A stretch of DNA of 55,714 nucleotides from Acidobacteriota bacterium (GTDB taxonomy: Bacteria > Acidobacteriota > Terriglobia > Acidiferrales > 2-02-FULL-67-57). The stretch spans positions 1 through 55,714 of the forward strand of contig JACQTJ010000021.1 of assembly GCA_016210855.1 (NCBI GenBank), in the 5' to 3' direction. The number at the start of each line of letters is the position of its first letter. Within the stretch, counting starts at the first letter, position 1. The notes below the pieces were generated by a model. That model was given only the letters and a program-made list of their open reading frames with translations, made no database searches and was not told the origin of the DNA. Shown piece after piece: positions 36,404-53,031 of the stretch. Both the position numbers and the translations under genes were made by a program.

Positions 36404-36511
36404 TGTCATCCCGAGCGCAGCGAGGGATCTGCTTTTCCGGGCAAGCAGATTCCTCGCCGCCCCTTCGACTTCGCTCAGGGCAAGCAAGGCAGGCAAGGGC
36501 TCGGAATGACA
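36404..36511. repeat. Dispersed palindromic repeat, copy 7 (GGATCTGCTT-type)
   Basis: TGTCATCCCGAGCGCAGCGAGGGATCTGCTTTTCC...GCAAGCAGATTCCTCG...CTCGGAATGACA. Confidence 0.83.
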
Positions 36512-43868: not shown

Positions 43869-43897
43869 GAGATTCTTCGCTTCGCTCAGAATGACAG
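43868..43897. repeat. Half palindromic repeat, copy 9, abutting the uracil-DNA glycosylase start
   Basis: GAGATTCTTCGCTTCGCTCAGAATGACAG. Confidence 0.75.
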
Positions 43898-48471: not shown

Positions 48472-48560
48472 TGTCATTCTGAGCGCAGCGAAGAATCTCA
48501 GCCGAAGGCGCGGGCAACGGTGAGATTCTTCGTCCCCGTACGGGTCCTCAGAATGACAGA
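48472..48560. repeat. Dispersed palindromic repeat, copy 10
   Basis: TGTCATTCTGAGCGCAGCGAAGAATCTCAGC...GTGAGATTCTTCGTCCCCGTACGGGTCCTCAGAATGACAG. Confidence 0.87.
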
Positions 48561-48569
48561 GGGGAAAAG

Positions 48570-49736
48570 CTAGACGTTGACGGCGAGGGTGGTGTCAACG
48601 CGGGGCTGGCCGTCGGCGGTGCGGGTTACCGGGCGGTAGAGCGTATCGCGCTCCACCGGGTCGCGTCCGGCCTCGTGGATCAGCCGCAGCAGTTCGGAAC
48701 GGCGCAGGGCCTGGGCGGTTTTGGCCCCGGCGTCGTGGTAAATCTTTTCTTCGATCACCGTGCCGTCAATGTCGTCGGCGCCGAAGCGCAGCCCCACCTG
48801 GGCGATGGGCGGGGTGAGCATGATCCAGTAGGCCTTGATGTGGGGGAAGTTGTCGAGCAGCAGGCGGCTGATGGCGATGTTCTTGAGGTCGAGGAAGCCG
48901 GTGGTCTTGGGCAGGTGGCTCAGGGCGGTGTTGTCGGGGTGGAAGGCGAGCGGGATGAAGCAGACAAAGCCGCGGGTCTCGTCCTGGAGGGCCCGCAACT
49001 GGAGCAGGTGGTCCACCCGTTCCTCCGCGGTCTCAATGTGGCCGTAGAGCATGGTGGCGTTCGAGTGCAGGCCGAGCTCATGCGCGTTGCGCGCCACCTG
49101 GAGCCACATCTGCCCGGAGGTCTTGTGGTCGCAGATGACCTTTCGCACTCGGGGGTGGAAAATCTCCGCCCCGCCGCCCGGCAGCGACCCGAGGCCCGCC
49201 TCCTTGAGCTTCAGGAGCACGTCGCGCACCGGCAGCTTCGAGATCCGCGACAGGTAGTGGATTTCCACCATGGTGAAGGCTTTCAGGTGGACGTGCGGGA
49301 AGCGCTCCTTCAGGCCGCGGAGCAGGTCGAGGTAGTACTCGAAGGGCAGGTCGGGGTGCAGCCCGCCGACGATATGGAACTCGGTGACGGCTTCATCGTA
49401 GCCGGTGGCGGCCGTCCGCAAGACCTCTTCGAGCGCCATGGTGTAGGCGCCAGGGGCGTTGGCGTCACGCCCGAAAGCGCACAGGCGGCAGTGGGCCACG
49501 CAGGTGTTCGTGGGGTTGATGTGGCGGTTGATGTTGTAATAGCAGAGGTTGCCGTGCTTCTGCTCGCGGACATGGTTGGCGAGCCAGCCGAGGGCGAGCA
49601 AATCGTTCGAATGGTAGAGGGCCACGCCGTCTTCAAACGAGAGCCGCTCGCCTGCCTGTACCTTCTCGGCGACGGGTTCGAGCCGCTTGTCTTCGAGAGT
49701 CAGTTGCCGGCTTATCATTTCGGTTGCATGAATCAC
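48570..49736 (-). CDS. mqnE: Aminofutalosine synthase (radical SAM)
   Basis: INPTNTCVAHCRLCAFGR (CX3CX2C), EFHIVGGLHPDLPFEYYLDLLRGLK, AGLGSLPGGGAEIFHPRVRKVICDHKTSG, GADDIDGTVIEEKIYHDAGA; start 49736 or 49718. Confidence 0.96.
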   Translation of the reverse strand: MIHATEMISRQLTLEDKRLEPVAEKVQAGERLSFEDGVALYHSNDLLALGWLANHVREQKHGNLCYYNINRHINPTNTCVAHCRLCAFGRDANAPGAYTMALEEVLRTAATGYDEAVTEFHIVGGLHPDLPFEYYLDLLRGLKERFPHVHLKAFTMVEIHYLSRISKLPVRDVLLKLKEAGLGSLPGGGAEIFHPRVRKVICDHKTSGQMWLQVARNAHELGLHSNATMLYGHIETAEERVDHLLQLRALQDETRGFVCFIPLAFHPDNTALSHLPKTTGFLDLKNIAISRLLLDNFPHIKAYWIMLTPPIAQVGLRFGADDIDGTVIEEKIYHDAGAKTAQALRRSELLRLIHEAGRDPVERDTLYRPVTRTADGQPRVDTTLAVNV

Positions 49737-50125: not shown

Positions 50126-51007
50126 CTAAAACAAAATATCCACGCCCCAGAACAAGAGCAGCAGCACGCTAATATACCCATTCACCGTGAAAAATGCAGC
50201 ATTCACCTGGCTCAAGTCGTGCGGCTTGACGAGCGAGTGCTCGTAGGCCAGCAGCCCTGCCACCACCGCCAGTCCCCCGTAGGCCACCGCCCCCAGCCCG
50301 GCCAGATGCGCCAGCCACACCAGCAGCCCGAGCATGGTGACGTGCAGCAGCCGGGACACCCACAGCGCTCCTGCTATCCCTATACGCCGGGGAAGGGAGA
50401 AAAGTCCCACCTGGCGGTCGAAGTCCACGTCCTGGCAGGCGTAGATGATATCGAAGCCGGCCACCCAGAAGAGCACGGCCAGGCTGAGGGGCAGAATCTC
50501 CCAGTCGAGCCGGCCGCGCACGGCAATCCAGGCCCCGGCGGGGGCCATCCCCAGGCACAGGCCCAGCACCCAGTGGGTGAGGAGGGTGAAGCGCTTGGTG
50601 AAGGAGTAGAGGAACAGGATGGCCAGCACCAGAGGGGAGAGCTTCAGCGCCAGGGGATTCAACTGCCCGGCGGCCAGCACCAGGACCGCCGCCGAGACCA
50701 GCGTGAAGGTCCAGGCAAACCCGAGCGAGAGCTTGCCGGTGGGCAGCTCGCGGTTGGCGGTGCGGGGGTTCCGGGCGTCGTAGCGGAGGTCGGCGATGCG
50801 GTTGAAGGCCATGGCGGCGCTGCGCCCGCCGACCATAGCCACGACAATCCAAAAAATCTGGTGCGCGGTCGGCCAGCCGCCTGCCCCGCCGCCGGCGGGG
50901 CGCGCCGCTAACAGCGCCCCCAGCAGGGCAAAGGGGAGCGCGAACACCGCGTGCTCGAACTTGATCATCCGCAGCGTGGTCAGCAGCGGACGGAACACGG
51001 CGCTCAT
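50126..51007 (-). CDS. UbiA-family prenyltransferase (menaquinone pathway, MqnP-like)
   Basis: MIKFEHAVFALPFALLGALLAA, GGRSAAMAFNRIADLRYDARNPRTANRELPTG, GFDIIYACQDVDFDRQVGLFSLPRRIG. Confidence 0.93.
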   Translation of the reverse strand: MSAVFRPLLTTLRMIKFEHAVFALPFALLGALLAARPAGGGAGGWPTAHQIFWIVVAMVGGRSAAMAFNRIADLRYDARNPRTANRELPTGKLSLGFAWTFTLVSAAVLVLAAGQLNPLALKLSPLVLAILFLYSFTKRFTLLTHWVLGLCLGMAPAGAWIAVRGRLDWEILPLSLAVLFWVAGFDIIYACQDVDFDRQVGLFSLPRRIGIAGALWVSRLLHVTMLGLLVWLAHLAGLGAVAYGGLAVVAGLLAYEHSLVKPHDLSQVNAAFFTVNGYISVLLLLFWGVDILF

Positions 51008-51615
51008 CCTCCGGCGCCTTTCCACTGGCGCTGCCTTTCTTGCGGCAGGCCGAGGCGGGCCAGCACCCGGCAGCAGAACTGCGTCACCAGCTCGTCCAGG
51101 TTCCTGGCGCCAAAGTAGTAACCCGGCGAAATCGGGAAGTTGACCCCGCCGGCGCGGGCCACCCGCAGGGCGTTCGCCAGGTGGATGGTGTTGAGCGGGG
51201 TGTCGCGCCAGCAGACGAGCAGCGGCCGGCCTTCCTTCAGGTGGACGTCCGCGGCCCGGCGCATCAGGTTGTCGCTCAGGCCGTTGGCGATGGCCCCGAG
51301 CGTCCCCATCGAGCAGGGGATGATGACCATGCCGTCGGTCGGGTAGCTGCCGCTGGCGAGCGAGGCGCCGATGTCGGCGTTGTGCAGGTGCTCGAACTTT
51401 TTCGCCGCTGCCCGGCCCACCAGCGCCGCTGGCAGCTGGGCCAGGTCTTTGGGAGCGATGTGGAGCTCTTCCTTGAGCAGGCGCATCCCGCCACTGGATA
51501 CGACCAGAGGCACGCCGGCGACGCGCTTGTCCGCCGCCAGGAGTTCCAACAGCCGGCGGGCATAGAGGGCGCCCGAGGCCCCGCTGATGCCCACGACGAT
51601 GGTCTTGCCGCCCAT
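51004..51615 (-). CDS. UbiX-family flavin prenyltransferase
   Basis: TIVVGISGASGALYARRLLELL, SGGMRLLKEEL, GMVIIPCSMGTLGAIANGLSDNLMRRAADVHLKEGRPLLVCWRDTPLN. Confidence 0.95.
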   Translation of the reverse strand: MGGKTIVVGISGASGALYARRLLELLAADKRVAGVPLVVSSGGMRLLKEELHIAPKDLAQLPAALVGRAAAKKFEHLHNADIGASLASGSYPTDGMVIIPCSMGTLGAIANGLSDNLMRRAADVHLKEGRPLLVCWRDTPLNTIHLANALRVARAGGVNFPISPGYYFGARNLDELVTQFCCRVLARLGLPQERQRQWKGAGG

Positions 51616-51843: not shown

Positions 51844-52590
<747 letters not shown>

Positions 52591-52604: not shown

Positions 52605-52691
52605 GGTTATTCCGAGCGAAGCGAGGAATCTGCTTGCCGCCGGCGCAGTCAGACAACACAAACAGACCTCTCGACTGCGCTCGGGGTGACA
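52605..52691. repeat. Dispersed palindromic repeat, copy 13
   Basis: TTATTCCGAGCGAAGCGAGGAATCTGCTTG...ACCTCTCGACTGCGCTCGGGGTGACA. Confidence 0.75.
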
Positions 52692-52716
52692 TCTCCGAAC
52701 AAGGAGCTGGGACACG

Positions 52717-53031
52717 ATGCCTAGAGTCTTCCGCAAGCAGGTGTTCGTCTGCACCACCGAAGGCGAAGGGAAGTGCGCGACCAAGGGGTCGCTGGAGGTT
52801 TTCCAGAAGTTTCGCGACGAGGTGAAGGCGCGCAACCTGACCGACATCATCGTCACCCGCGTGGGCTGCACCGGGCAGCACGCCACCGGCCCCACAGTCA
52901 TCGTCCACCCAGACGGGCTTTGGTACCAGCGGGTCACTCCGACCGACGTCGCAGAAATCATCGAGCAGCACCTGGTGGGCGGCAGGCCGGTCGCGCGGCT
53001 CATCAACCCCGAAATGCAGGTGAAGGGATAG
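52717..53031 (+). CDS. Thioredoxin-like [2Fe-2S] ferredoxin with predicted 3Cys/1His ligand set
   Basis: VFVCTTEGEGKCATKGS...RVGCTGQHATGPTVIVHPDGLWYQRVTPTDVAEIIEQHLVGGRPV; same architecture as (2Fe-2S) ferredoxin-domain proteins but His replaces the fourth Cys. Confidence 0.85.
   Translation: MPRVFRKQVFVCTTEGEGKCATKGSLEVFQKFRDEVKARNLTDIIVTRVGCTGQHATGPTVIVHPDGLWYQRVTPTDVAEIIEQHLVGGRPVARLINPEMQVKG

Follow-up and report, generated by a model that had tools for sequence, protein, structure and literature searches.

Our analysis of a 55,714-nucleotide stretch of Acidobacteriota DNA (hereafter, the window) points to a thioredoxin-fold, ferredoxin-like protein in which a histidine occupies the position of the fourth cluster ligand. 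In the likeliest reading, to which we assign a probability of about two in three, this protein would carry a 3Cys:1His [2Fe-2S] cluster, with C12 and C20 on one iron and C51 and His55 on the other, and would carry one electron at a time, possibly coupled to a proton. The reading combines the sequence, a predicted structure and analogy with characterized proteins, from which we infer a thioredoxin-like ferredoxin with a 3Cys:1His variation of the ligand set, working like Apd1/Aim32. As a predicted native ligand set in this fold, 3Cys:1His looks new.

The open reading frame at 52717..53031 (+) encodes 104 residues, and a good Shine–Dalgarno sequence, AAGGAG (52701..52706, +), lies 10 nt 5' of its ATG at 52717. 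A first-pass annotation had given the same frame, had named Cys12, Cys20 and the Cys of the GC pair (Cys51) as ligands and had quoted the motif GCTGQHATGPTVIVHPDGLWY, all of them correctly; the ligand region reads VGCTGQHATGPTVIVHPDGLWY. The protein has only three cysteines. Translation, HMMER alignment and codon comparison place the TGC codons of Cys12 at 52750..52752 (+), Cys20 at 52774..52776 (+) and Cys51 at 52867..52869 (+), as the putative first, second and third ligands corresponding to Cys9, Cys22 and Cys55 of the Aquifex ferredoxin. His55, placed at the fourth-ligand position (Aquifex Cys59) by alignment and conservation, is encoded by CAC at 52879..52881 (+), one codon upstream of the earlier assignment (52882-52884). 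The resulting spacing, C-X7-C-X30-C-X3-H, departs from the four-Cys pattern of the family, C-X10-12-C-X29-34-C-X3-C (PMC11138216), in having three Cys and one His, and a short first loop.

The best PDB matches (HMMER, phmmer) are the A. aeolicus [2Fe-2S] ferredoxin and its Cys55Ser and Cys59Ser variants, with E values of 4e-22 to 2e-20. In the HMMER alignment His55 falls opposite residue 59, which is Ser in 1m2d, the Cys59Ser crystal structure; the earlier statement that His sits at the last Cys position thus holds residue for residue. An AlphaFold2 model of the protein (mean pLDDT 86.2, pTM 0.80) was interpreted at the level of the fold, the side-chain geometry at the ligand site being unreadable. 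Foldseek superposed it on 1f37, 1m2a and 1m2d with a probability of 1.00, a TM score of 0.83 and an rmsd of 1.4-2.0 Å. The next matches were the thioredoxin-like ferredoxin domains of bifurcating hydrogenases and complex I, and all 50 fold matches at E up to 0.001 were thioredoxin-like ferredoxins or such domains in larger complexes. At the prediction level, the thioredoxin-like ferredoxin fold is therefore settled. Among family models, the best Pfam match was PF06999 (Suc_Fer-like, Apd1/Aim32), at 31.7 bits against a gathering cut-off of 34.9 (E 2e-7) and over profile positions 97-187 only. PF01257 (2Fe-2S_thioredx) scored 24.2 bits, just under its cut-off of 24.8, and NCBIfam NF041612 gave an E value of 5e-20, yet fell far under its equivalog cut-off.

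Five homologues, 68-85% identical, occur in further genomes of the same order, in the families f1 and f2, and all read GCTGQH. His55, Cys12, Cys20 and Cys51 are invariant across the two families (6/6 genomes), although in so small a sample, with about half of the alignment columns invariant, the conservation of a single residue is modest evidence on its own. The six genes have diverged by 0.67 to 1.6 synonymous substitutions per site, and the His codon itself has undergone a synonymous change, being CAT in one gene and CAC in the other five. Because the six related genomes with this gene all have the same swap, it is probably a real natural variant, predicted to tune the iron-sulfur cluster. 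The genome of the window is a draft of 130 contigs, and we found nothing to suggest that the His stems from faulty sequencing or assembly or from a mutation confined to this genome; that explanation is refuted by the presence of His in six separately assembled genomes, including two loci in the public Acidobacteriota records MEKM01000183 and JALLOH010000002. A hidden fourth Cys was likewise ruled out, since no other Cys is conserved and the only extra ones are C11 in one locus (L004) and C57 in another (L007). The first-pass annotation had proposed a 3Cys-1His ligand set and an alignment with related genomes; in that alignment the close relatives all have His and no fourth Cys is conserved elsewhere, so the predicted set withstood both tests.

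The same data bear on whether the cluster has been lost altogether, leaving a scaffold or a thiol-active thioredoxin-fold protein. Losing a ligand can lead to such an outcome, but decay would be expected to remove the three remaining ligand Cys as well, and these are invariant in genes evolving under purifying selection (dN/dS 0.13-0.24). Moreover, the replacement is always His and never mixed. We regard cluster loss as very unlikely.

In the tree, the six His proteins form one clade among Cys-type ferredoxins with a support of 100/99, in an analysis of 66 rows and few columns that was rooted at the midpoint; the conservation of His in a subclade, for which the proposed alignment was meant to look, is thus borne out. 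Within the class, profile searches separate the last complete His member (3e-56) from the first Cys member (1e-24) by a wide gap in E value. A partial His match at a contig end in one genome (7e-42) raised the possibility of a second gene copy there, which was ruled out, as the two contig ends concerned appear to be one locus. Of the Cys-type loci that were read out after the profile searches, not one carries His at this position. In a motif survey of 396 Acidobacteriota genomes, the Cys form was found in 71 and the His form solely in the genome of the window. A scan of 84,980 species used peptide patterns that do not include the His motif and is insensitive to the variant, and other phyla were surveyed only shallowly.

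The ligand set and its phylogenetic setting also bear on a different occupant of the site. Zn(II) is commonly bound by CCCH sets, and the protein could hold zinc or another single metal ion, without a [2Fe-2S] cluster, as a structural or metal-handling protein; a linkage to the adjacent nickel-cofactor gene, described below, would suit such a role. Against this, the ligand spacing of the scaffold family is that of a two-iron cluster, and all four Cys are present in the proteins nearest to it in the tree. We therefore consider a single-metal site distinctly unlikely.

Other departures at the ligand positions were observed among related ferredoxins. In a second variant, CGS(L/M/I)Gx-C, the third-ligand Cys is replaced by Ser and a Cys lies two residues upstream; it occurs in loci L009, L037, L038, L047-L049, L051, L053, L056, L057, L063, L065 and L103, and also in L022 from Myxococcota, many of them in open frames of about 450-580 residues. 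Its 13 members from Acidobacteriota cluster with one another in the tree (88/83). Five divergent Cys-type proteins from family f8 of the same class (L102, L104, L106, L107 and L114) have MCFGGCHDGPN, MCFGGCHEGPN or MCFGACHEGPN where the third and fourth ligands lie. A second histidine, His64 (52906-52908, VxxHPDG), is invariant in the His clade, while most relatives have Tyr. This His is independent of the swap, since L022 has the equivalent of His64 together with a Cys fourth ligand. In A. vinelandii FeSI, Tyr69 forms a hydrogen bond across the dimer (PMC8561814); it may be the counterpart of His64. Relatives are also carried by 84 plasmid records, and on haloarchaeal plasmids (H8, H19, H20, H23-H25, H29) such ferredoxin domains lie inside proteins annotated as CbiX/SirB N-terminal domain-containing.

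The crystallization of the Aquifex Fd4 Cys59Ser variant indicates that an altered residue at the fourth-ligand position is structurally tolerated. This tolerance, seen at two ligand positions with the Cys55Ser and Cys59Ser variants, also leaves room for a [2Fe-2S] cluster to which His55 is not bound, the fourth ligand being water or hydroxide, a hydroxyl side chain or a residue of a partner, in a labile or sensing cluster. The cluster of the thioredoxin-like ferredoxin class lies near the surface (PMC11138216), which would favour such an arrangement. On the other hand, His55 is strictly conserved in six proteins exactly at the ligand position, and experiments support His as a ligand at this site in Apd1/Aim32. 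An unligated His55 is thus, in our judgement, a rather unlikely alternative.

Under the preferred reading, with His55 as a cluster ligand, the iron on Cys12 and Cys20 would stay ferric, by homology with the solved ferredoxins, and the iron on Cys51 and His55 would be the reducible one. His55 would be expected to give a potential that is higher than in the 4-Cys ferredoxins and dependent on pH, and it may tie the transfer of an electron to that of a proton. For a His ligand, a higher potential and proton-coupled redox chemistry are reasonable expectations. The protein would act as a one-electron carrier, probably as a homodimer, for a partner. Points against this reading are the short first loop (C-X7-C, compared with 10-12 residues in the classical members), with which the local geometry could differ, and the scores of both Pfam models, which fall just short of their cut-offs.

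The surroundings of the gene may indicate where such a partner should be sought. Directly upstream on the same strand, in 6/6 genomes and with a gap of at least 44 bp, lies larB of nickel-pincer cofactor biosynthesis, assigned by NF033503 (279.5 bits, cut-off 175) and synteny; in the window it occupies 51844..52590 (+), with the start that its relatives suggest, in a frame open from 51799. Divergently upstream in the six genomes are a ubiX-type flavin prenyltransferase gene (51004..51615, −; TIGR00421, synteny), a ubiA/mqnP-type prenyltransferase gene (50126..51025, −; TIGR01475, synteny) and mqnE, encoding the aminofutalosine synthase of the futalosine menaquinone pathway (48570..49736, −; TIGR03700, 520 bits), and purB follows convergently downstream where the contigs reach. 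A scan for promoters and terminators between larB and the ferredoxin gene gave nothing useful. A dispersed repeat like TCATTCCGAGCGAAGCGAGGAATCT has one copy between these two genes (52607-52631) and others at 48474-48498, 43870-43894 and 36406-36430, with up to 3 mismatches; shuffled sequences give none.

The ferredoxin gene is present in 6 of the 95 genomes of the order, all in f1 or f2 and none in f3, suggesting that the f1/f2 lineage either acquired or retained it. In f3 genomes, larB and ubiX/ubiA often occur together and the ferredoxin is absent, and the ferredoxin therefore cannot be essential for LarB. The genome of the window also encodes larC and larE. The LarE proteins of relatives in the order (L124, L126, L127 and L129) have a CYxCK pair and a third Cys (ACLxSRxxYG); a CxxC pair plus a third Cys is the mark of [4Fe-4S]-type LarE, and the sequences suggest, speculatively, that LarE of this order may bear a cluster. 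A literature search for a link between Lar proteins and ferredoxins returned papers that, judged by their titles, use the terms merely in passing. A tie between the ferredoxin and the Lar pathway is speculative, and the adjacency of larB offers a lead rather than evidence for a shared pathway. We consider it unlikely that the full combination holds, namely a natural 3Cys:1His ferredoxin, with a ligand set between those of the 4-Cys proteins and Apd1/Aim32, acting in this lineage of Acidobacteriota as a dedicated proton-coupled electron carrier or cluster donor for nickel-pincer cofactor assembly (LarB/LarE). Given its conserved place after larB, the nickel-pincer cofactor route is nevertheless the first place to seek a partner.

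If the cluster is confirmed, the protein would provide a naturally occurring 3Cys:1His [2Fe-2S] site on a thioredoxin-like ferredoxin scaffold. Alongside its 4-Cys and 2Cys:2His counterparts, it would form a natural series of zero, one and two His ligands on one small, crystallizable fold, in which one could compare how each His affects the potential, the pKa and the stability. The larB neighbour, in turn, suggests where to look for the physiological partner of these functionally obscure ferredoxins.

Among the known systems, A. aeolicus Fd4, C. pasteurianum 2FeFd and A. vinelandii FeSI resemble the window protein in fold, size, the first three Cys and the GP and PDG-x-WY motifs. In these thioredoxin-like [2Fe-2S] ferredoxins, the fourth ligand is Cys and the first inter-Cys loop has 10-12 residues (motif from PMC11138216), whereas the window protein has His and a loop of 7. 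The analogy with mitoNEET drawn in the first-pass annotation is sound for the ligand set and for the C-X-G-X-H spacing. Like the NEET proteins (mitoNEET, CISD2), the window protein is predicted to have 3Cys:1His ligation with one Cys and the His on one iron (CDGSH there, CTGQH here). The analogy does not extend to the fold, which is unrelated, and with neither the C-X-C pair nor the CDGSH signature the protein lies outside the NEET family on every point of membership. The resemblance is one of convergence, because the two folds have no relationship and Cys-type relatives already commonly have the Gly (GCxGxC). In mitoNEET, the iron bound by Cys83 and His87 becomes ferrous upon reduction, the potential is about 0 mV, and pH lability is documented (PMC9737848). 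The pH-sensitive cluster release that the annotation extended to the window protein is possible but is not predicted from a His ligand alone: the two-His Rieske centres are stable, and in mitoNEET a hydrogen-bond network to Lys55 adds to the lability, of which His ligation is not the only cause (PMC9737848). Rieske proteins also have a His-ligated [2Fe-2S] cluster, but of 2Cys:2His type and with an unrelated fold and motif.

The yeast Apd1/Aim32 domains are closer. They follow C-X8-C-X24-75-H-X-G-G-H, the ferric iron being held by two Cys and the reducible one by two His, and their His ligands permit proton-coupled electron transfer (PMC11138216, PMC8482512, PMC11126956). The window protein shares with them the predicted fold, His at the fourth position, a short first loop (X8 there, X7 here), the Gly in the middle of C/H-X-G-X-H and, in PF06999, its best Pfam match. 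The original Apd1 study reportedly found the cluster retained in His-to-Cys variants. Bona fide Suc_Fer-like (HxGGH) proteins scoring above the cut-off were found in none of 151 genomes of the class, and a direct tree link to Apd1/Aim32 therefore cannot be built. The differences are also clear: the third ligand of Apd1/Aim32 is His (2Cys:2His), whereas that of the window protein would be Cys51 (3Cys:1His), which places it outside that family; it scores below the PF06999 gathering threshold; and, while Apd1/Aim32 has an additional N-terminal domain, the window protein is a single-domain product of a 104-residue frame with its own Shine–Dalgarno sequence. With the same fold and His at the same position, Apd1/Aim32, and not mitoNEET, is the closest precedent.
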